From positions 1-50,918 of IMG/VR virus record IMGVR_UViG_3300012931_000029: DNA of 50,918 bases. One strand, written 5' to 3'. The stretch comes from a virus. The notes under the pieces are model-generated. The model was not told where the DNA came from and ran no database searches. It worked only from the letters and a program-made list of their open reading frames with translations. Within the stretch, counting starts at the first letter, position 1, and every line of letters starts with the position of its first letter. Of this stretch, positions 3,078 to 25,025 are shown piece after piece. The position numbers and the translations under genes are program-made.

Positions 3078-3896
3078 ATGAATGAGCTGGCACTATTCGC
3101 AGGCGCTGGTGGCGGCATACTCAGCGGCAAACTCCTTGGATGGCGCACCGTCTGCGCCGTCGAAATCGAGCCATATGCTCGCAATGTGCTCATCGCTCGG
3201 CAAGACGACGGATGCCTCCAACCCTTCCCAATCTGGGACGACGTGCGCACATTCGACGGAAAGCCTTGGCGTGGAGTGGTGGATATCGTCACTGGCGGAT
3301 TCCCGTGCCAAGACATCAGCTACGCCGGGAGTGGTGCAGGTATCAACGGCGAGAGAAGCGGGCTGTGGTCTGAAATGGCTCGAATCATTCGCGAGGTGGG
3401 ACCGCGCTTCGTGCTCGTGGAAAACTCCCCAATGCTCACTTCTCGCGGGCTTGGACGAGTACTCGCAGACTTGGCCGCGATGGGGTATGATGCGAAATGG
3501 GGAGTGTTGGGAGCTAACCACGCCGGCGCACCTCACCGCCGAGAAAGAATCTGGATTCTGGCCAACGCCGACAGTCTGCGGGAATTACAACCGAGCTGGC
3601 ATCACTCCGAAGGCGGGCGATGGTCTGGCGACAGCGATGAGGAAATGGCCGACGCCAACCTGTCAGGACGCGAAGAACAACGGCGCACCATCGCAGATGA
3701 AGCGGAACACGAAGCCGCTAAATGCGGAGGTTGGTGGGCCGCTGAACCCGACGTGGGTCGAGTGGCTCATGGGGTGGCCGCTCGGGTGGACCGACTGCGC
3801 TGCATCGGCAACGGACAGGTTCCGGCAGTGGTGCGAATCGCATGGAATATCCTTCAACCTAATGAACAACCAACACACGCCGCAGAGGCAGTCTAA
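3078..3896 (+). CDS. C5-cytosine DNA methyltransferase
   Basis: 272 residues with the C5-methyltransferase motifs in order: FAGAGG (7-12, S-adenosylmethionine binding), GGFPCQDIS with the PCQ catalytic loop (76-78), VLVENS (ENV-type, 113-117), RRERIW (154-159), and RLRCIGNGQVPAV near the C-terminus (motif X). It transfers methyl groups to cytosine in a short DNA target. In a phage with no visible partner nuclease the likely role is protection from host restriction. The target-recognition region (about 165-235) is short. The whole gene is overlapped by a second open frame starting 4 nt later, which constrains both proteins. Confidence 0.92.
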   Translation: MNELALFAGAGGGILSGKLLGWRTVCAVEIEPYARNVLIARQDDGCLQPFPIWDDVRTFDGKPWRGVVDIVTGGFPCQDISYAGSGAGINGERSGLWSEMARIIREVGPRFVLVENSPMLTSRGLGRVLADLAAMGYDAKWGVLGANHAGAPHRRERIWILANADSLRELQPSWHHSEGGRWSGDSDEEMADANLSGREEQRRTIADEAEHEAAKCGGWWAAEPDVGRVAHGVAARVDRLRCIGNGQVPAVVRIAWNILQPNEQPTHAAEAV

Positions 3897-3903
3897 CGAG
3901 TGA
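3082..3903 (+). CDS. Overprinted phage protein in the +1 frame of the methyltransferase
   Basis: 273 residues, open over the entire methyltransferase gene in the +1 frame, with its ATG 4 nt after the methyltransferase ATG (ATGAATGAG). Its sequence is not random-looking. It starts MSWHYSQALVAAYSAANSLD and has SFARWDRASCSWKTPQCSLL, TWPRWGMMRNGECWELTTPA, two WPTPT repeats, and LNPTWVEWLMGWPLGWTDC near the end. I recall this architecture (MSWHYS..., S-SWKT-QCSLL, WPRWG-MR-GECWE, NP-WVEWLMGWP-GWT) as a conserved phage family of unknown function that overlaps C5-methyltransferase genes. The function is unknown. All methyltransferase motifs lie in the other frame, so this is not a frameshifted remnant of that enzyme. 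Confidence 0.75.
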   Translation: MSWHYSQALVAAYSAANSLDGAPSAPSKSSHMLAMCSSLGKTTDASNPSQSGTTCAHSTESLGVEWWISSLADSRAKTSATPGVVQVSTAREAGCGLKWLESFARWDRASCSWKTPQCSLLAGLDEYSQTWPRWGMMRNGECWELTTPAHLTAEKESGFWPTPTVCGNYNRAGITPKAGDGLATAMRKWPTPTCQDAKNNGAPSQMKRNTKPLNAEVGGPLNPTWVEWLMGWPLGWTDCAASATDRFRQWCESHGISFNLMNNQHTPQRQSNE

Positions 3904-9395: not shown

Positions 9396-9614
9396 ATGCC
9401 AGCAAACGTCACATCAATTCCAGATTTCGGAAAGCGCCTGAAGGCCCGCCGGGAAGCCATTCACAAGACCGCCACGGAAATTGCCGATGCATCCGGCATC
9501 TCGCTTGGCAACTACTGCAATTTGGAGGAGTGCCGGTCGCTTCCATCGCTTCCGGTGTATCGCCAGATTTGCCGTGCGCTTGGAGTTACTTCTGGCCAGC
9601 TTCTCCGCAAATGA
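9396..9614 (+). CDS. XRE-family helix-turn-helix regulator
   Basis: 72 residues, essentially one XRE/Cro-type DNA-binding domain: FGKRLKARREAIHKTATEIA, DASGISLGNYCNLEECRSLP, then SLPVYRQICRALGVTSGQLL. The recognition helix (SLGNYCNLEECR) and the closing 'ALGVTSGQLL' are typical. It has no dimerisation or protease-sensitive domain, so it resembles Cro or a small repressor. It lies at a divergent promoter pair and is coupled to the FkbM gene by ATGA, suggesting it controls its own operon and perhaps the leftward pair. Confidence 0.8.
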   Translation: MPANVTSIPDFGKRLKARREAIHKTATEIADASGISLGNYCNLEECRSLPSLPVYRQICRALGVTSGQLLRK

Positions 9615-10291
9615 ACACCGACAAATTATTCACGCTGCGGCGTCTCTCGTGGGGCGCCCTGTGCATGGAAGGCGACGACAATTTCCCGCATCGCGCGGAA
9701 GCGGCCAAGACATTCGACCTCGACGGCGACAAGGTTTGGGTGGCGGAACGAGTTGGGCTGAAACCCGGAGACGTGGTGGTTGACGTGGGCGCTTTCGTGG
9801 GAGACACTCCGTTCGTATGGGCCAACAAATTCGGCTGCAAAGTTCATGCCTTTGAGCCGTTCTTGGACGCCTTCGTGTGCTGCATCTACAACTGCCGTTA
9901 TTTGCCTGTAACGTGCTACAATGTTCCCGCAGGCAACGGCGAGCGTGTGCGGTTGGAATACAATTGCCCAGGCCCGAACTTTGGGATGCGCAGTGTACGC
10001 GCCGATGACGGTCCTGAATCGGTCGAGTCATTCCGCATCGACAGCTTAAACCTTCCGGCGGTGAAGTTCATGAAAATCGACTGCGAGGGTAGCGAGATTC
10101 CGACGCTGCTTGGCGCAGCCGAGACGATCCGGAGGTGCCGCCCGATTTTGTTCGTCGAGATGTTCCGCGACGGGCAGGCGTGGCGCGGATTCACGCCGGA
10201 GCAGTTGGAGGAAACAATTCGCGTTCTTGGATACAGGCTGGAAATGGTTGGTGAGCTTCCAAGATATGACTGGCTATGCTGGCCGGAGTGA
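9611..10291 (+). CDS. FkbM-family methyltransferase
   Basis: 226 residues from the ATG overlapping the regulator stop. The S-adenosylmethionine-binding motif VVVDVGAFVGDTPFVWANKF is followed by KVHAFEPFLDAF, then KFMKIDCEGSEIPTLLGAAE and PILFVEMFRDG. These are the defining blocks of FkbM-type O-methyltransferases, which often methylate sugars in surface polysaccharides. It is the first gene of a tightly overlapping sugar-modification operon, so the substrate is probably a glycan made by the following genes. Confidence 0.85.
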   Translation: MNTDKLFTLRRLSWGALCMEGDDNFPHRAEAAKTFDLDGDKVWVAERVGLKPGDVVVDVGAFVGDTPFVWANKFGCKVHAFEPFLDAFVCCIYNCRYLPVTCYNVPAGNGERVRLEYNCPGPNFGMRSVRADDGPESVESFRIDSLNLPAVKFMKIDCEGSEIPTLLGAAETIRRCRPILFVEMFRDGQAWRGFTPEQLEETIRVLGYRLEMVGELPRYDWLCWPE

Positions 10292-10299
10292 CACGCATC

Positions 10300-12564
10300 A
10301 TGACATCACAATTCAGGATTCCATCAGAGTTCCACGATTTTTCTATGCGGAACCAGTTGGGCGACTATCTCAACAAGCACGGACTGACCGGGAATTTTGT
10401 GGAGGTTGGCGTGCTATTCGGCGCATATTCGGAGATTATCCTAAAGTCGTGGGATGGGCATCTGCACTGCGTTGATCCGTGGATAAACCAAGATGACGCG
10501 GTTTATTTAGACGGGGCTAACAAGCTAAACATGGAGACAATCTATGCCACCGCGAGGGCAACGATAGGCTCCAATCCCCGTTGCACCCTGCATCGCATGA
10601 TGAGTCTCAATGCCGTTGGCTTGTTTGACGATGGCGAACTAGACGGTGTTTACTTGGATGGCAACCATGCGCTGCCTTCCGTGCGCTCGGACATCCTGTG
10701 CTGGTGGCCAAAGGTGAAGATTGGCGGCATTGTCAGTGGGCACGATTTCTTCACTCGCTACGACAACGACACCAACAGCGATGCGCTAACGGCGGTGATG
10801 GAACTGTCGGAAATTATCGGTGTTAGGCCGCATATCACTTGGGATACGAGCTGGTGGTTCACGAAGACGGCTGATGCCGACATGAAGTTCAGGCAGGCAA
10901 ACATTGAAGGAAGGTTTGAGCAGCCTGTTTTCACAAACAACAACGGGATTCATCCGGTCGTGGTTCTTCCGGTGGCGCGCTTCGACTGGAATCTGGCAGT
11001 GAAGTGGCTGCGCTGGGTTGGAAATCTGGACTGTCCCTTGGTGGTTTATTGCAGCCCTCAGTTGACAGAGGGCGAACTTGACAACCTCGACACGGGCGGG
11101 CGCGTCGTTGTGGCGAACGAGCTGAAGGAGTGTGGATACTTCGGAACTCCAAATGGGGTTATCAAGGGCGCGCTCGAATACTGCGAGAAGAATTACAGTG
11201 GGCGTGCCGTGATTTGGTGCGAGGCGGACACGGTGCCGATGTGTCACGACTGGGTGGAAAAAATCATGGACGAGTATAGCTCCTGCGGGCGTCCGTTCTT
11301 AGGTGACGTAGAGTTGGGTGGGACCAAGCCGCATCTCACTGGCAACGCTGTCTATCATCCCAACTGGCGCAAACTGGCTCCGTCCATCGCAGCATTGGGG
11401 AAGGAGGCCGAGGGGTGGGACAGCCTGTGCGCTCACGATACGATGCCAAGGTCGCGGAGGAGCCTGACGATTCAGCAAATTTGGCGCCCGAAACTTCCGA
11501 TTACTGCGGAGTGGGCCAAGGAGAACATCCACCCAACAACCGCGCTGTTCCACCAGTGCAAGGACGGGTCGCTTATCGACGTGCTGTGCCAGCAACAGGG
11601 TATGGCGATTATTCCGTTGGCCAAGGCGCTGTGCGAATCGACCTACGAGACGCAGCGCACGCAACTTGTTGCAAAACCGACTCCGGTTCCCGTGAAGGCT
11701 CCTGTAGTTGTTACACAGAAGCGCGCCGACAAGCAGGCTATGGAAATCCTGATTGTTACGTTCAAGCGCGACATGGAGTTCTTGCGCTATTGTCTGCTTT
11801 CCATTGCCAAGTATGCCACTGATTTTTCCGTGGTGACGCTCGTTGTCCCGCAGACCGAGCGCGGGCTTTACGACTGGACGCTTCCGCAGGCAAAGGTATG
11901 CTACTTCGATGAGCCTCCTGGAAAGGGGATGCTGGCCCATGAGCGCGAAATCATGCGCGCAGACGAGTGGTGTCCTAACGCGAGATACATCCTGCACCTC
12001 GATGCCGACTGCATGTTTTGGAATCCAACCACTCCGGCAGACTTTCTTCGCGACGGGAAAGCCTTCAACCGCCGCGAGGCATACAGCAACATCGGCAATC
12101 CCAACCGCCACATCTGGAGCCGCTGCGTAGACAAGTTTGTTGGCGTAGAACCGAGATACGACTACATGCTCAGGCATCCCCAAGTCCACATCCGGGAAGT
12201 TTACGCCAAGGCGCGGTCAGAAATAGAGCGGCACACGGCTCGCGTTTGGGACACGCAGATCATGGCCGGGCAGAACACATTTCCACAGACATTTGCCGAG
12301 TTCCCGACGCTTGGCGCAATTGCAGATAAGTTCTTTCATGAGTTCTACCATTGGGAGGACTACGACAAGAAGCAGGATCGCCGAACTTTTGGTATCCCAG
12401 ATAATCAGGACTTTCAATTTGTCTACACACCGAATCGAAATCACGTTGTCGAGTTCTGGAGCCACGGAGGGCTTGGCTATCGGCCCGCTGGAAGCGTAGA
12501 GACCTACCGCGAAATGGCTGAGAAGTTCCTGCGCGGAGAACTGCCACAATTCTATCTCAAATGA
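10300..12564 (+). CDS. Methyltransferase-glycosyltransferase fusion protein
   Basis: 754 residues in three parts. Part 1 (about 1-200) is a class I methyltransferase: GNFVEVGVLFGAYSEIILKS, HLHCVDPW, LDGVYLDGNHALPSVRSDI, GGIVSGHDFF. Part 2 (about 220-460) looks like a GT-A domain: FDWNLAVKWLRWVGNLDCPL, AVIWCEADTVPMCHDWVEKI, TGNAVYHPNWRKLA. Part 3 (about 485 to the end) begins MEILIVTFKRDMEFLRYCLL and has LHLDADCMFWNP with a DxD metal site. A TPVPVKAPVVV linker separates parts 2 and 3. An in-frame ATG at 10276 would overlap the FkbM gene; 10300 has a GGAG upstream. The product could glycosylate and methylate one acceptor. Confidence 0.75.
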   Translation: MTSQFRIPSEFHDFSMRNQLGDYLNKHGLTGNFVEVGVLFGAYSEIILKSWDGHLHCVDPWINQDDAVYLDGANKLNMETIYATARATIGSNPRCTLHRMMSLNAVGLFDDGELDGVYLDGNHALPSVRSDILCWWPKVKIGGIVSGHDFFTRYDNDTNSDALTAVMELSEIIGVRPHITWDTSWWFTKTADADMKFRQANIEGRFEQPVFTNNNGIHPVVVLPVARFDWNLAVKWLRWVGNLDCPLVVYCSPQLTEGELDNLDTGGRVVVANELKECGYFGTPNGVIKGALEYCEKNYSGRAVIWCEADTVPMCHDWVEKIMDEYSSCGRPFLGDVELGGTKPHLTGNAVYHPNWRKLAPSIAALGKEAEGWDSLCAHDTMPRSRRSLTIQQIWRPKLPITAEWAKENIHPTTALFHQCKDGSLIDVLCQQQGMAIIPLAKALCESTYETQRTQLVAKPTPVPVKAPVVVTQKRADKQAMEILIVTFKRDMEFLRYCLLSIAKYATDFSVVTLVVPQTERGLYDWTLPQAKVCYFDEPPGKGMLAHEREIMRADEWCPNARYILHLDADCMFWNPTTPADFLRDGKAFNRREAYSNIGNPNRHIWSRCVDKFVGVEPRYDYMLRHPQVHIREVYAKARSEIERHTARVWDTQIMAGQNTFPQTFAEFPTLGAIADKFFHEFYHWEDYDKKQDRRTFGIPDNQDFQFVYTPNRNHVVEFWSHGGLGYRPAGSVETYREMAEKFLRGELPQFYLK

Positions 12565-17819: not shown

Positions 17820-20800
17820 ATGGCGGAAATCGACAACGGTATTCAGGAACCGGATGAAACTCAGGATGATGTTGTTCAATCAGCTCCGGCGCTTGGAGTA
17901 AGCACGAGAGGAAGGGCGACGCCGCGCGGAACAGACCTTAGCGTTTCCAACAGCCTGTTATTGGCAACTCCGCAAGGAGAACGGGCATCGCAACAGGCGT
18001 ATCAACAGGGCAGGCGCGATGCGCTTGATCGGCAGAACTCGGCGCTTGAAGCTAAGTTTCGTGGCAGTCGGGCTCGATTCTACAAAGACCCCGAATCGGG
18101 GCTATACACCCAAGAAGTAGAGACCGAGACGGGGAAGCCGCTTTTCCACGAAACGACATGGGAACCTGGAGCGATTCATCCCAAGACTAAGGCACCGGCC
18201 TATGTAAAGCGCAACCAGTATGGAGAACAGGAGTTTAAGCACGCGCCAATTGTCCGCGGAAGCGACCCGACAGACGACCAGCTCTACTATCATTTTAAGG
18301 AGACTGACGAGCAGATTCCAGCCGGAAAGCTGACAGACTTGATGAATCACCCCGAGCCGCAGGTTGCCAGAATGGCACATGTTGCAAACATGCAGCGGAC
18401 AAAGGCGATTTGGGATGAAGCATTGCAACCCCACAAGGAGTCGTTGCAGAAGGCGGAGGCAGACTTGCGCGATGCCCGCGACACGGCGGCAGCGTATGGG
18501 AGTGAAATCGCCGCCTTGCAAAAGCAGCAGGAAACCGCCGCTGATCCGACCATTGCGGCGGGACTTCAGGCCAGCATCGACCAACTAGCAAATGATCAGC
18601 AGTCACTTATCCAACGCACCGGAAAGACCGGAGACCTTAGCTTGGCCCATCGCCGAGCGCAGACAGCCTTTGGGATTTTCAGTGCGAAGGCGCGTGCGGC
18701 TGAATATGAGGCCAGGCGCGGCGCTCGTATTGCGGTGTTGAAAGAGAACGGATTGCCGACAGAAGGCGATCCGCAGTTGGCAGAAATCGACGCTGCACAG
18801 GCGGCAGTTAATCAGGCATTTAACGATCACGTTGGGGAACACCTCGAAAGCGTGGCCGGCAAGCTGGCGCAGCAAGACCAGCAGACGGCGGCGCTGACTG
18901 CCGGAGAGCCAAAGGCTTTGTTGCAACGCGGCCTCAAGAACGTGGGTGGGATTTCGGTCGAGGATGTTATCCGCCGATATGGCAACTTCCAAGGCGAGCC
19001 TCCTGCGGCAGCAGTGCTGAAAGTTCACCAGCGGCTAGGCGAACTCGAACAAATGCTGGCCGATCCTGAGTGGGCTACGCCAAAAACGGCGAAGGCATTG
19101 CAGGACGAGCAGACCTACCTTGGCCAGCTTTACGACCAGCGCGTTGCTAGGATGTCCCCAGCTGCAAAGGAAAGACTGCAAGCGACGATTGACGCGCAGA
19201 CGACATCAACGATGGGAGCGGTTGGGCGCGCGGCTGGCATGGGGCTGGCCCCGGCGGCAGGCGCATGGGGTGGCGCAGAGTCAGGAGCGGCGCTTGGGTC
19301 TGTTGTAGGACCTGTAGGAACGGTTGTTGGAGGCGGTCTCGGCGCATTGATCGGTGGAATACTGGCAAACAAGGCGCAGAGCAGGGCGTTGGAAAAGCTG
19401 GCTCCGGAAGCGCACAAGCAACTCGTGGAGTTGCAGGTAATTGATTCTGAGCAGCACCCGTTTGCCTCTACTTCCGGCGGACTGCTGGCGAGCGTTCCAA
19501 TCTTCGAGATTCAAGGCCCGTTGGCTGCGGCCAAGGGACTTGCGTCACTATTCAAACTGGCCAAGGGCGAGACTGTAAATGCCGCCGAGATGCTGGCGGC
19601 GAAGGCTACTGCAATCCAGTCCGGCCTTGGCGCCGGACTTGGCTTGGTTGGTCCGATGATCGAAGGACAGGCTCCGACCGTCAAGGACGTGACACAAAGC
19701 GTTGCACAGGTAATGATGTTTGGGGCGCCCAGATTTGGCGGCAAGGGTGGCGCGGCACAGCCGGGCAAGCCTGGAGCGCAGCCGGCTACAGAAACCCCGC
19801 CTACGTCAGCCGGTGGAACGCCAGCGCCGATTTTACCGGAACCCCCGCCGCCAGTGAAGTCGGCCAAGGAAGCAGCTTGGGAGATGGCCATGCGGGAAGG
19901 CGAGGAGCCTGTTAAGCGCGAGACGATCAAATCAAGCGGTGGCGACGAAGCGCCGTTTGCCGAGCACGTTGCCCGTGCCGACCAAGTTGTGAGGAAGTCG
20001 CCCATAGGCGGCGAACTTATTAGTCAGCAACTTGATACCGAAGCGAATGCCAACCGGCTTGGCGCGAAGCCAGCGCAGATTCCGGCCCAAGCACAGCATG
20101 GTAGTTCAGCGGAAGAACGCTTGCCTCATACGCAAGAGGTCGCCGGTTCAAATCCGGTCCATGCAACCATTCCCGCACCGCAAGCGACGGTTGGCCCCGG
20201 TGGAGAAATCAAGGCTCCCGTGGCGCCCGCCGAGCAGCCACTTCGCCCCAGTGGCGAACAAGCGCCCGCACCAAGGGCCGAACCGGCATTGCCGATTCAA
20301 CCAAGTGCTCCGACTGCCCCGGCGGCAGCGGAGCCAATTTCGACTACCTTGCCGGAGCCTGTCGGGGGTAGCAGAGTTGGACAAGGGGTGAATGAGACGG
20401 CAAAACAACAGGCTCCGGCATCTGTCGATCTAGGGCCGATGGAGATGCCTTTTCAGGAGAAGAGCTCGACCCACCCGGATTTAAGAATCCGGGAAGACCT
20501 TCCTGAAGCAAAACCCATAATTGATAAGATAGATGAGATTGTTAAACGCGGAACAGACCGACAGGCGGCAATGTCGGATGGTCAGGTTAAACAACTTACC
20601 CATCCATTTGACACGCTGACATCTGCCGAAAAGGAGGAGTTGCATAATCTAAAAATGCAATTGCGCCCCAAGAGCGCGCAAGAGGCCAGGGCGGATATTT
20701 TGAAGAAACGCGCTGATCGAAAAGCGCAGACAGAAAGCCGACAACCCGAAAGGCTGCCGCTTGAGCCCGCGCCCGAACGCTCCCCGATGGAGCGCGCAAC

Positions 20801-23800
20801 TCAGGAAGCAATCGAGCGGACAAAGAACCTAGACTTTGCAGAACGAAGAAATCAAGCCGAGGCATTGAATGTTATTCGGAAGATAGCCGCAAAGCACGGA
20901 GTAAGCGCAGCGGAATTAAACCGCGCGGTAGTTTACAGACCAGAAAAACCAGCGCCTGAAGTTTCTTCCAAAACAGAAACAACTCCCGCGCCTGTTGTCG
21001 CTGAAGAAAACAAGCCAATTTCAATTCAACCCACGGAGGCACCAAATGCCCTACAAAAGCCTAGCGCAAGCAGCCTACTTCAACGTCCACAAGAAGGAAC
21101 TGGAAAAGCAGGGGGTGAACGTCAACGAGTGGAACAAGGCGAGCAAGGGAAAGCCGCTCCCGAAGCACGTCCCGCAGAGCCAGCCAAGCCCGCCCAAGAA
21201 AATCCGCCGCCTGTTCAGCAAGAAGTAACCAACGAATTGCCGACACCGGCCCAAATGAAACCCGCTGAACTGCGGGCGGAATTAGCCGCATCTGGAATTA
21301 AAACAGTTTCGGGCGGTGTTCCGATAGAAGAAGCAAGATCGAACCAACTTAAGGCGGCAGTCGGTAAACTGCGCCAAGGCAAAGAGGTTTCTTCGTTAGC
21401 AGAGGCCAAAACAGGTTCGATAAAAATTGAAGACGCGCAGGCTGCGGTTGCCGAGTGGAAGGCGAAGAACACGAAGGCGCCGGAAATAGAAGTGGTCAAC
21501 GACCCGGAGTGGACGGAGAACGGGCGCGGGGTGCGCGGGCAGTATCGGGATGGCAAGCTGGTCATCAATTCCGCCTATGCCGACAGCGCCGCGACGATCC
21601 ATGAGATTGCCAACCATGAGTGGGCGCACGACACGCTGGCTAGCAAGCAGGGCAAACTGGCGTTGGCCGCGTTTGCCACGCGGGAATTGCCGGTGGCGGA
21701 CCTTGACGCACTCAAGGCAAAATATCCGCAACAGGCGGGTGAGAGCGTGGTCGATCACCGGATGCGTTTGGTGGAGGAATGGGCGGCGAAGAACGCCGAG
21801 AAGAATCCAAGCGTGTGGCGGAAGATCGTGGATGCGGTGCGGGGCTGGCTGGCCGACCGTGGCTTGGTCACGCTGACGCACGATGAGGCCGCGCGGGCGA
21901 TGCTGCGGACACTGCGGGGTGGTATGGATGAATCCGCTTTCAATGACTACGCCGATGCTCGCTCAAGTCTAGGCGGGTATGCTGACGACTTCTCGAAATC
22001 TAATCGCGCAATTGATGCAGAGGCAAACGGCAGATTTCCCGCCTCAGAAATTGCCCGTAAATTAGGATTGCCGACAAAATTCATCACCGACCATGCGCCG
22101 AATACAGGCGAATGGCATCATACCAGCAAATTTTACAATACGACCGATTACTACGATCTTCAACAAGTGAAGGATTGGCTACACGGGGAAGGCGATTATG
22201 CGGAGGGTGGTGAACGCGCAGAAGCCCGAACAGGCAATGATGTATTGGCTGAATGGAAAAACAAGCAGAAGGAAATTTCTGTCAAGCCTAGTGACATTGC
22301 GAAAGGCGTTTCTGTTAAGTATCTAGAATGGAGTGGTTCACGAAACCATCCTGTCGCAACAGAACGCATAGAGCACAATGTTACGGTAGAGCGTAAGCCG
22401 GGACAAAAGTTTCTTACTATTACCCGACCTGACGGAACAAGTTTTAAGAAGGCACCGACGACCCGTGGATTTGAAATTGCTGAGTCAAAGGAAGGGAAAT
22501 TTGCGCCCGCTGATTACGACTGGCATCTTAATAAGATTCTTGGTGTAGAGCCGAAGGATATTCCACGTTCGAGCCTGGCTGATACCGAGAAAGAACTGCG
22601 GGCTGGTCAGGCGAAGCTCGCTTCCGCATGGAGCAAGATGCGCAGTGATGCCGACCTGAAGCGCACGCTTGCCGCCGACCGGGATGCCGTGGACACCAAG
22701 GCCAACCAGTATTCGCGGGAAGTGCGCAACACGGTGTTCGACCAGTTGAAGCGTTCCATCCCAGATACCAAGGAACTCGCCACCGCGCAGGATGCGCTCG
22801 CCTTCCATATCGAGGCGGGTGGTAGCGCCAAGAAGCTGCAAGAATTTAGGGCGAAGATTGAGGCGTCAACGAAGGCGGCCCCTAAGTGGAAGGCTCGCGC
22901 ACTTGCGGCCATAAACTACGCTTCCGCCAACGGGGCCAAGTTGAGCGACACCGCCGCCACCTATCGCAAGTTCACGGATGAACAGGTTGCCCGCGAACAG
23001 GAGGCCGGTCTGCCGACGCTCAAACGGGACAATTATGTGCCGCGTTACCAAGACATCGAAGAAGGCTCATGGTTTGACACAGGCGCCCACACCTCGCCAA
23101 CGGGCGCATCGAACCGCAAGAACCGCAAATACGAGACGCTGGCCGATTCCATTGCGGACGGTGTTGATCCGAAAACGCTGAATGCTGTCGATGTGTTGGA
23201 CACACGCATCCGGTCCGGCGAGACGGGCATCAATGTGCGGACGTGGCAGAAGTCGCTGAAGGATTACAAGACGCCTTCCGGCGAAGCTCTCGCCCAGACG
23301 CCAACGCGCGTGTCGCGCGCAGATGGCTCATTCTACTACGAACCCGGCAAGGGCTACGTCTTGGAGAATGTCGGCAACACGCCGATTGCTGTCAAAAAGG
23401 AGTTTGCTGGCATGGTAGGGGCGCTGACCGACCCAAGCTGGTTCTCGCAGAGCGCCGCCCGCCAGACTGCGCAACGACTGAACGCCAGTGCCAAGAGCAT
23501 CACGCTGGCGGTCGATACCTTCCATCTTGGCCGGCTGGCTTTCCGCTCCGCGATGATCCGCGCCGCCAGCCTGAAGGATGCGAAGTTTGGTCCCGCCTTC
23601 CGCGAGGGATTGCTGATTGCCGAGCACAGCCCAGCCGAGATTGAGCGCATGGGCAAGTCCGGCGAGATTCCGGCTGAAACCGTTCCCGCCATCTTGGAGT
23701 CGAAGCTGATTCTCCAGAAGGGCATTGACGTTGGCTACCATTCCGGGCGAGTGGCCGATGCGATGCACCAAGAGATGATCCAGAAGGTGCCGCTGCTTGG

Positions 23801-25025
23801 CGACGTGAACAAGTTCATCTTCCAGAAGTTCCAACGCGGGGCGATGAACGATGCGTTTGTCATCGAATACAAGCGGCAGCGGGCGGACTACCCGCAGATG
23901 ACGGACGAGCAGGTTGCCCGCAAGGTCTCGCGGGAACTGATGACGCGCTTCGGAAACCTTGGCCGGCAGGGCTGGTTCACGTCGAAGACGGCTCAGGACA
24001 TGGCCCGCATGATCTTCCTCGCCCCGGAGTGGAATCAGGGTCTCATCCGGTCGGAGATTGGCGCTGTGACGGACATTGCCAAGACTGCTGCAAACAAGCT
24101 GATTGGCCGACAGGCGGCAATGGGGCTTCTTGGCCGAGAAATGGTGACAACCGCAATTGCACTGTTCGCCGGCTCGCAAATCATCAATCAGGCGACGCGC
24201 GGCAAGTTCACTTGGGAGAACCCGGAGGAGAGTTTTGGCGCCAAGATTTCGGCGTGGATTCCCGACAAGCTTGGCGGCAGCAACGGATTCTTCTTCAACC
24301 CGCTTGGCCTCACGGCAGAGACAGCGCATCTGATGATGAACGCCTACGAGCGCACGGGCAACACCTACGAGCCGATTGTGAGCTACGTCCGGTCTCGCGC
24401 CTCTGCTACTACGCGCCCGGCATGGACGCTGGCCACGGGCAAGGACGCCTTGGGTCGCACGATCAAGGAAGGCGAGCGTTGGCAGGAGACGGCTAAGGAT
24501 ACAATTCCCGCGCCGATCAGCGGTGGCGCGATTATTCGCGGTGCAAGTGGTGTTGTGCAAGGTGGAATGAGCGAGAAGTTCCCCGGTGAATACCAGAAGC
24601 AGGCGATGCAGACTTTCGGCATGAGGACCGAGCTGGCCCCATCTCCAGAGAAGCGGATTCGCATTCTTGCCTCTGAGTTCAACGAGGCGCGCGGCAAGGT
24701 GCAACAGGGCGAGTTTGGCGTGAGCGAATACGCGGAACTGACCGACGCCTTGCGCCGGCAGAACAAGGGCGACATAGAGGACGCCATCGCTACCCTGTCG
24801 GAGAAGCATGACAGCAAGGCCATCGAGGACTACTATCGCCGCTGGCAGCATACCAATTTCACCGGCTCCGCTGTGTCGGAAGCGCAATTCCTTCGCACCC
24901 TCAACGCTGAACAGCGCAAGCAATACCAGGCTGCGCGCCAAGAGCGCACGCGCATCGCAGTCCGCGCCTTGCAGGCGATTCGGAGCTTGCCTGTCGGAAC
25001 ACGAAAGCCAATTGCGGCCAAGTAA
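17820..25025 (+). CDS. Giant internal-virion / polyvalent protein with HExxH motif
   Basis: 2401 residues between terL and portal. Order: a coiled-coil N-terminal region (about 180-330); a glycine-zipper hydrophobic segment (about 461-520; AALGSVVGPVGTVVGGGLGA, LIGGILANKA) that could enter a membrane; Pro/Ala-rich linkers; a zincin-like site NHEWAHD with HExxH at 1266-1270; an HHTSKFYNTTDYYD-type domain (about 1420-1470); and a long helical C-terminus with RFGNLGRQGWFTSKTAQDMA, IFLAPEWNQGLIRSEIGAVT and a hydrophobic stretch MVTTAIALFAGSQII. This fits large multi-domain proteins packed in virions and injected with DNA. Two linkers contain foreign-looking inserts: a tRNA (20095-20169) and an overprinted gene (21046-21228). 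Confidence 0.8.
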   Translation: MAEIDNGIQEPDETQDDVVQSAPALGVSTRGRATPRGTDLSVSNSLLLATPQGERASQQAYQQGRRDALDRQNSALEAKFRGSRARFYKDPESGLYTQEVETETGKPLFHETTWEPGAIHPKTKAPAYVKRNQYGEQEFKHAPIVRGSDPTDDQLYYHFKETDEQIPAGKLTDLMNHPEPQVARMAHVANMQRTKAIWDEALQPHKESLQKAEADLRDARDTAAAYGSEIAALQKQQETAADPTIAAGLQASIDQLANDQQSLIQRTGKTGDLSLAHRRAQTAFGIFSAKARAAEYEARRGARIAVLKENGLPTEGDPQLAEIDAAQAAVNQAFNDHVGEHLESVAGKLAQQDQQTAALTAGEPKALLQRGLKNVGGISVEDVIRRYGNFQGEPPAAAVLKVHQRLGELEQMLADPEWATPKTAKALQDEQTYLGQLYDQRVARMSPAAKERLQATIDAQTTSTMGAVGRAAGMGLAPAAGAWGGAESGAALGSVVGPVGTVVGGGLGALIGGILANKAQSRALEKLAPEAHKQLVELQVIDSEQHPFASTSGGLLASVPIFEIQGPLAAAKGLASLFKLAKGETVNAAEMLAAKATAIQSGLGAGLGLVGPMIEGQAPTVKDVTQSVAQVMMFGAPRFGGKGGAAQPGKPGAQPATETPPTSAGGTPAPILPEPPPPVKSAKEAAWEMAMREGEEPVKRETIKSSGGDEAPFAEHVARADQVVRKSPIGGELISQQLDTEANANRLGAKPAQIPAQAQHGSSAEERLPHTQEVAGSNPVHATIPAPQATVGPGGEIKAPVAPAEQPLRPSGEQAPAPRAEPALPIQPSAPTAPAAAEPISTTLPEPVGGSRVGQGVNETAKQQAPASVDLGPMEMPFQEKSSTHPDLRIREDLPEAKPIIDKIDEIVKRGTDRQAAMSDGQVKQLTHPFDTLTSAEKEELHNLKMQLRPKSAQEARADILKKRADRKAQTESRQPERLPLEPAPERSPMERATQEAIERTKNLDFAERRNQAEALNVIRKIAAKHGVSAAELNRAVVYRPEKPAPEVSSKTETTPAPVVAEENKPISIQPTEAPNALQKPSASSLLQRPQEGTGKAGGERQRVEQGEQGKAAPEARPAEPAKPAQENPPPVQQEVTNELPTPAQMKPAELRAELAASGIKTVSGGVPIEEARSNQLKAAVGKLRQGKEVSSLAEAKTGSIKIEDAQAAVAEWKAKNTKAPEIEVVNDPEWTENGRGVRGQYRDGKLVINSAYADSAATIHEIANHEWAHDTLASKQGKLALAAFATRELPVADLDALKAKYPQQAGESVVDHRMRLVEEWAAKNAEKNPSVWRKIVDAVRGWLADRGLVTLTHDEAARAMLRTLRGGMDESAFNDYADARSSLGGYADDFSKSNRAIDAEANGRFPASEIARKLGLPTKFITDHAPNTGEWHHTSKFYNTTDYYDLQQVKDWLHGEGDYAEGGERAEARTGNDVLAEWKNKQKEISVKPSDIAKGVSVKYLEWSGSRNHPVATERIEHNVTVERKPGQKFLTITRPDGTSFKKAPTTRGFEIAESKEGKFAPADYDWHLNKILGVEPKDIPRSSLADTEKELRAGQAKLASAWSKMRSDADLKRTLAADRDAVDTKANQYSREVRNTVFDQLKRSIPDTKELATAQDALAFHIEAGGSAKKLQEFRAKIEASTKAAPKWKARALAAINYASANGAKLSDTAATYRKFTDEQVAREQEAGLPTLKRDNYVPRYQDIEEGSWFDTGAHTSPTGASNRKNRKYETLADSIADGVDPKTLNAVDVLDTRIRSGETGINVRTWQKSLKDYKTPSGEALAQTPTRVSRADGSFYYEPGKGYVLENVGNTPIAVKKEFAGMVGALTDPSWFSQSAARQTAQRLNASAKSITLAVDTFHLGRLAFRSAMIRAASLKDAKFGPAFREGLLIAEHSPAEIERMGKSGEIPAETVPAILESKLILQKGIDVGYHSGRVADAMHQEMIQKVPLLGDVNKFIFQKFQRGAMNDAFVIEYKRQRADYPQMTDEQVARKVSRELMTRFGNLGRQGWFTSKTAQDMARMIFLAPEWNQGLIRSEIGAVTDIAKTAANKLIGRQAAMGLLGREMVTTAIALFAGSQIINQATRGKFTWENPEESFGAKISAWIPDKLGGSNGFFFNPLGLTAETAHLMMNAYERTGNTYEPIVSYVRSRASATTRPAWTLATGKDALGRTIKEGERWQETAKDTIPAPISGGAIIRGASGVVQGGMSEKFPGEYQKQAMQTFGMRTELAPSPEKRIRILASEFNEARGKVQQGEFGVSEYAELTDALRRQNKGDIEDAIATLSEKHDSKAIEDYYRRWQHTNFTGSAVSEAQFLRTLNAEQRKQYQAARQERTRIAVRALQAIRSLPVGTRKPIAAK
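20095..20169 (+). tRNA. tRNA with CAT anticodon (Met/Ile2-like), inside the giant ORF
   Basis: A complete cloverleaf can be drawn. Acceptor AGCATGG pairs with CCATGCA (6 of 7 pairs; A-A mismatch at 1-72). TA at positions 8-9. D stem GTTC/GAAC with loop AGCGGAA. Anticodon stem CTTGC/GCAAG with loop CTCATAC, anticodon CAT at 20127-20129. Variable AGGTC. T stem GCCGG/CCGGT (one G-T pair) with loop TTCAAAT. Discriminator A166, then encoded CCA (20167-20169). The anticodon stem lacks the three G-C pairs of initiators, so it is elongator Met or Ile2 (CAT). It is read in frame by the surrounding ORF (about residues 759-784). Confidence 0.85.
21046..21228 (+). CDS. Small protein overprinted in the +1 frame of the giant ORF
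   Basis: 60 residues: MPYKSLAQAAYFNVHKKELE, KQGVNVNEWNKASKGKPLPK, then a basic tail ending IRRLFSKK. A perfect Shine-Dalgarno GGAGG at 21035-21039 sits 6 nt before the ATG. The pattern MPYKS-AQAAYF---KKELEK-GV-V-EW--ASKG--LPK is one I recall from small conserved phage proteins. In the frame of the giant ORF the same DNA encodes only a Gln/Pro/Glu-rich linker (about residues 1076-1137), as expected if this gene was captured by the larger ORF. Function unknown. Confidence 0.7.
   Translation: MPYKSLAQAAYFNVHKKELEKQGVNVNEWNKASKGKPLPKHVPQSQPSPPKKIRRLFSKK

Follow-up and report, generated by a model that had tools for sequence, protein, structure and literature searches.

A virus contig from IMG/VR contains one stretch of DNA that is open over nearly its whole length in two overlapping frames, one of which encodes a C5-cytosine DNA methyltransferase. 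The locus raises the question of whether the second frame encodes a protein and, if it does, what that protein has to do with the enzyme. The window, by which we mean the whole stretch of 50,918 nucleotides that was analysed, also contains terminase-, portal- and major-head-like genes. The two open reading frames, here called alpha and beta, have starts offset by 4 nt and ends offset by 7 nt; these offsets, the lengths and coordinates of the two frames, and the beta motifs quoted in the original prediction are all present in the sequence. The features of the locus are as follows.

3078..3896, plus strand: alpha, the predicted catalytic subunit of a C5-cytosine methyltransferase, 272 amino acids, with motifs I-VIII and X.
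3082..3903, plus strand: beta, the +1-frame protein, 273 amino acids, proposed as the small-domain subunit (target recognition domain, TRD, plus motif IX).
3078..3084, plus strand: double start ATGAATG (ATGAATGAG), with the alpha ATG at 3078 and the beta ATG at 3082.
3078..3566, plus strand: alpha residues 1-163, the catalytic large domain with motifs I-VIII (alignment A2; pLDDT mostly 80-96).
3588..3773, plus strand: alpha residues 171-232, a variable linker where a recognition domain would be expected; the model leaves most of it disordered.
3789..3833, plus strand: alpha residues 238-252, motif X (DRLRCIGNGQVPAVV; alignment A2).
3412..3732, plus strand: beta residues 111-217, TRD-like, with CSWKTPQCSLL, WPRWGMMRNGECWE and two WPTPT repeats (alignments A1 and A3; PHROG 1008).
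3739..3792, plus strand: beta residues 220-237, the motif IX-like segment PLNPTWVEWLMGWPLGWT, near-invariant in A1 and A3.

Just 5' of the locus lies a serine recombinase/DNA invertase-like gene (PHROG 125, positions 2115-2768). Two further methyltransferase-like genes (PHROG 8156 and PHROG 2675) are found at 9530-12564, so that with alpha the phage has at least three such genes, and an open reading frame of 2401 amino acids occupies 17820-25025.

The product of the locus is likely to be a C5-cytosine DNA methyltransferase made of two different subunits, a heterodimer encoded by almost one and the same piece of DNA. We infer that the chains would form a complex in which alpha supplies SAM binding and the catalytic Cys in its large domain (motifs I-VIII), closed by motif X. 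Beta would dock on alpha and set the sequence specificity, its TRD-like region and motif IX completing the small domain. Together the two would methylate cytosine at a specific site and could thereby protect the phage DNA.

The alpha chain has the catalytic half of such an enzyme. Residues 4-169 match PF00145 (E 2.8e-33), the M.HhaI profile also matches, and the catalytic-fold motifs I, IV (PCQ), VI (ENS), VIII and X of PF00145 are present. Confidence in the AF2 model of alpha is good for most of residues 1-168, and the helix that follows motif X (residues 249-259) has high pLDDT as well; the model superposes on M.HhaI with a Z of 22.1 and an rmsd of 3.0, with 202 of 327 residues aligned over a span of 12-327. 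Residues 171-217 and 223-232 have pLDDT values below 50, and in alignment A2 the stretch between motifs VIII and X is unalignable up to approximately residue 216. The model suggests that alpha has no folded recognition domain and carries a variable linker in its place. The original prediction held that all methyltransferase motifs are in one frame, which turned out not to be the case: alpha has I-VIII and X, and it is the +1 frame that has an IX-like segment. No motif IX was found by pattern in the alpha frame of the alpha-type chains checked, and alpha does not show the combination of motif IX and TRD in one chain that characterizes single-chain PF00145 enzymes. Several single-chain C5-methyltransferases from the same host genomes have IX in frame (LTPRECARLMGF and similar), and those single-chain enzymes gave no match to the beta profile; in contrast, the alpha-type chains are without an in-frame IX and are accompanied by beta at +1.

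The two-frame arrangement is widespread. A tblastn search with beta matched 128 phage records, all below 60% identity, with 15 of them covering at least 80% of the length of beta; a first scan for relatives had given 62, and a scan of IMG/VR gave at least 554 stretches, bearing out the expectation of a recurrent phage family. A scan of bacterial genomes yielded 203 stretches, with titles that include Proteobacteria, Verrucomicrobia, Acidobacteria, Spirochaetes and others. Of 231 loci, mostly chosen through beta, 206 match the profiles over the full length of both frames, with beta at +1. Among loci selected through alpha a full beta is present in 78 of 80 (41 of 43 among those new to the set), the exceptions being L269, with an internal stop in beta, and L253, where the beta match begins only at residue 14. 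Long dual coding is thus conserved over wide divergence, as had been predicted, and the refuting observation named at the outset, a stop within the +1 frame of a relative, was encountered once (L269) in the 80 alpha-selected loci. Of 198 loci, 192 have the two starts exactly 4 nt apart, and in 185 of those 192 beta begins with ATG. A beta-like frame at +1 was also found in 11/11 of the distant phage or plasmid methyltransferases first checked, which include examples from Bacteroides, Lacticaseibacillus, Microbacterium, Rhodoplanes and Porphyromonas. The papers searched in full text contained no description of this overlapping alpha/beta phage family.

Several individual loci depart from the usual layout. 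L006, L106, L160 and L179 have a single in-frame alpha stop in the linker between motifs VIII and X, with X downstream in the same frame. A single stop breaks alpha and leaves beta intact in L159/L335 and in L180, the stop of L159 falling directly after the catalytic-motif GGFPC; these are probably decaying prophage copies. PGAP calls the prophage copy in E. coli strain PCP07014 (L349, 1162-1963) a pseudogene, and its alpha and beta frames are interrupted near the same place. On a Rhodoplanes plasmid (L319, 1183-2901) the beta frame continues with no stop into the next site-specific DNA-methyltransferase gene.

Beta residues 65-212 match PHROG 1008, which is labelled DNA methyltransferase (E 1.8e-29); searches of Pfam and NCBIfam gave no match, and a sequence search of the PDB gave chance-level matches only. 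Modelled alone with AF2, beta has a pLDDT of 59 and a pTM of 0.28, a low-confidence result, and none of the few PDB chains that Foldseek returned for this model reached a Z of 2. The assignment of beta as the small domain is therefore a proposal from sequence. Beta PLNPTWVEWLMGWPLGW sits at the position expected for motif IX, and the IX-like segment aligned on LTPRECARLMGF of the single-chain enzymes in register with their IX (hhalign, E 0.18), an alignment that by itself is not significant.

Motif IX is missing from alpha, an IX-like segment is present in beta, and motif X is found on either chain. Where alpha ends after motif VIII, as in L051, L136 and L208, motif X lies in the beta frame behind IX, and the same shift is seen in Arthrobacter phage Andrew (L066) and mycobacteriophage Eagle (L352); an IX-like segment followed by motif X in one frame occurs in L051, L208, L352, L353 and L360. 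Gp54 of Mycobacterium phage Babsiella and gp5 of Gordonia phage Leonard each carry motifs I-VIII, the PTP repeats, an IX-like segment and X in a single frame, so that in these two relatives the PTP-IX part of beta is placed in frame after I-VIII and before X. The shift of motif X, the one-frame chains of Babsiella and Leonard, and the +1 frame in all eleven distant methyltransferases tie beta to the enzyme. The original prediction had assigned beta to a family of unknown function, perhaps an anti-defence partner; the sequence pattern points instead to beta as a second subunit of this methyltransferase, and the functional link that had been foreseen between the two products would lie in the TRD-like region and motif IX of beta. 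Beta could still be an independent protein, an anti-defence partner for example, that overprints the methyltransferase gene by chance. In favor of this, beta has its own conserved start and a weakly constrained N-terminal half, and phage methyltransferases often have an anti-restriction role. We nevertheless judge this unlikely, because alpha is left without motif IX or a folded TRD while the IX-like segment lies in beta, and because motif X switches chains and two actinophages have part of beta in the I-VIII frame. The whole enzyme may still shield phage DNA from restriction.

We examined selection on the beta frame by permuting the synonymous codons of alpha, which keeps both the protein and its codon composition. 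In the window the whole beta overlap was open in 0 of 500 such shuffles, with 4.5 stops expected, and a +1 run reaching 270 codons or more arose in 1 of 1000 (mean run 124 codons). For 175 non-redundant genes the shuffles gave a mean of 4.45 beta-frame stops and left the frame open with a probability of 1%. Over 169 genes the expected stops in five beta regions were 106, 171, 221, 87 and 176 (approximately 760 in total) and none was observed, a zero that is partly a matter of choice because these genes were picked for a full-length beta; for the same reason the alpha-selected loci serve as the unbiased check. In the +2 frame of the 169 genes, used as a control, 2519 stops were observed vs 2133 expected, so there was no depletion.

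Selection was also examined at the synonymous sites of alpha. The Asn codon at alpha position 2 is AAT in 156/156 genes (log10 P -71), compared to an AAC:AAT ratio of 920:485 elsewhere in alpha; AAC would destroy the ATG of beta, so AAT keeps the beta start. The first aligned codon of alpha is CTN or TTA, not ATG, GTG or TTG, in 22 of 192 loci, and these usually have an alpha start further upstream and retain the beta start. Four-fold synonymous divergence is approximately 0.5 across much of alpha and 0.00-0.09 at most four-fold sites of alpha residues 224-237, which are second codon positions of beta residues 223-236 (PTWVEWLMGWPLGW). Isolated four-fold sites near zero lie under beta D107, W113, P132, G135 and P192, and the site at P163 is low. 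Codon-position divergence in the N-terminal half of beta is alpha-like (alpha wobble 0.41-0.47) and turns beta-like in the IX segment (0.30 at beta position 3, 0.14 at position 2), and the first 110 residues of beta are therefore kept open yet weakly constrained as protein. Both frames are conserved and selected. Beta is a real protein under selection, and the missing stops and the frozen wobble positions in alpha uphold the earlier view that the second frame is not debris.

With the two starts adjacent, a single mRNA would yield both chains. Of the 148 loci in which the first alpha codon is a start codon, 110 have a Shine-Dalgarno-like match (4 bases or more) upstream, at a median of 4 nt before the alpha start and 8 nt before the beta start, a spacing that would allow initiation at either. 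Upstream of the window's own alpha no Shine-Dalgarno-like match was found, so that there we can only infer initiation. A programmed +1 ribosomal frameshift could alternatively fuse alpha I-VIII to the TRD-IX part of beta, in which case beta alone would not be the product. Frameshifting is common in phages and the motif order of the fusion would be canonical, but we regard it as quite improbable. Conserved beta residues 107-163, including the frozen sites at 107-135, share their DNA with the VI-VIII region of alpha, so a single pass cannot hold both; moreover, the silent constraint in alpha codon 2 preserves a beta ATG, and beta 1-110 is short of approximately 277 expected stops over the 169 genes. 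A read-through chimera made by way of a four-letter code word was dropped, beta 107-163 overlapping the same alpha region.

That beta is the relic of a split gene, persisting but dispensable, would fit the rare stops in beta (L269) and in alpha (L006, L106, L160, L179, L159 and L180), and is very improbable given the strong selection on the IX segment and the full beta kept in all but two of the alpha-selected loci. It is barely credible that the +1 frame is open merely from the composition and GC content of alpha, with beta similarity mirroring alpha conservation: C5-methyltransferases do tend to long +1 runs, as the shuffle mean for the window illustrates, and inspection of the sequences suggests that the WGxxxNG conservation of beta is partly dictated by the conserved GYDAxW of alpha, but no window shuffle stayed open, the approximately 760 expected stops are missing, and synonymous sites of alpha, including codon 2, are frozen under beta motifs.

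Against the two-subunit reading we count the low-confidence beta model, the non-significant IX alignment and the weak constraint on beta 1-110, together with the report that an engineered split of this kind (X on the large domain, TRD and IX apart) was inactive for M.MpeI and M.SssI (PMC5944983). On balance we favor the view that the locus belongs to an old and very widespread class of phage C5-methyltransferases in which the specificity half lies in the +1 frame of the catalytic half. In this class motif X and the PTP-IX segment would switch chains by frame-changing indels, one gene body would encode two co-evolving subunits, and beta would be systematically unannotated.

Long +1 frames also occur in two single-chain C5-methyltransferases with their own motif IX, from Streptococcus phages Javan92 (L356, 1427-1921) and IPP14 (L357, 1508-1987). 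Their +1 runs are 165 and 160 codons, respectively (P 0.007 and <0.001 vs synonymous shuffles), and hold a stretch like the LxDILExEV..FLS segment that follows motif VIII in canonical enzymes. Because these enzymes combine their own IX with long +1 runs, we considered that the +1 frame may act beyond supplying IX, or that a reduced beta may survive there.

Annotation of these loci is incomplete. Among the first 17 annotated intact phage or plasmid loci, both chains are annotated in 1, alpha only in 14 and beta only in 2. In Mycobacterium phage Jinglebell (L071, 1453-2158) alpha has a frame change and the locus is annotated as opposite-strand hypothetical proteins. If the two-subunit reading is true, many 'orphan' phage and prophage C5-methyltransferases annotated as single proteins are missing their recognition half, and cloned alpha genes would therefore seem inactive, and attempts to predict specificity from the alpha chain by itself would fail. 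The family would also be a source of natural split methyltransferases, which work on targeted methylation has sought to make by engineering, and would allow the movement of protein modules between reading frames to be studied. To our knowledge, long same-strand overlaps with both proteins conserved have rarely been established in dsDNA phages, and with several hundred relatives the tests here are statistically powerful enough to show selection on both frames.

The small chain of M.EcoHK31I is read from an overlapping alternative frame, as is the second chain here. This enzyme (YGGCCR) has motifs I-VIII and X on a large polypeptide and IX on a second, smaller one (PMC3404938), which is how the motifs are distributed over alpha and beta. 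It differs in that the frames here overlap almost end to end and belong to a phage or prophage gene, and in that the TRD of M.EcoHK31I is predicted on the large chain (PMC3404938), whereas here TRD-like conservation is in beta and the alpha linker is unconserved and disordered in the model. M.AquI (CYCGRG) is also made of two polypeptides, the small subunit having half of the variable region plus IX and X (PMC3404938). It is similar in placing catalytic and small-domain motifs on separate polypeptides; the window does not show the AquI-type combination of IX and X on the second chain, X being on alpha, and the relatives L051, L136, L208, L066 and L352 do show it, their frames overlapping. Some mycobacteriophages, Arthrobacter phage Andrew and Paenibacillus phage Tadhana have annotated pairs of overlapping 'DNA methylase' genes (both chains are annotated in L066, L352, L353 and L355), which likewise consist of an alpha and a second methylase at +1, but the overlap is partial or nested and the records carry no two-subunit reading. 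M.HhaI and M.HaeIII resemble alpha in that its model fits the large domain and motif X (Z 22.1), and are unlike it in being single chains with their own small domain. Two reports concern different things, the ShiLan methylase paper an out-of-frame homing endonuclease (PMC11855218) and the other a phage C5-methyltransferase reported without a second frame (PMC3025963). Most likely, then, the locus encodes a two-subunit C5-methyltransferase of the EcoHK31I kind with near-complete dual coding, widespread and mostly under-annotated.
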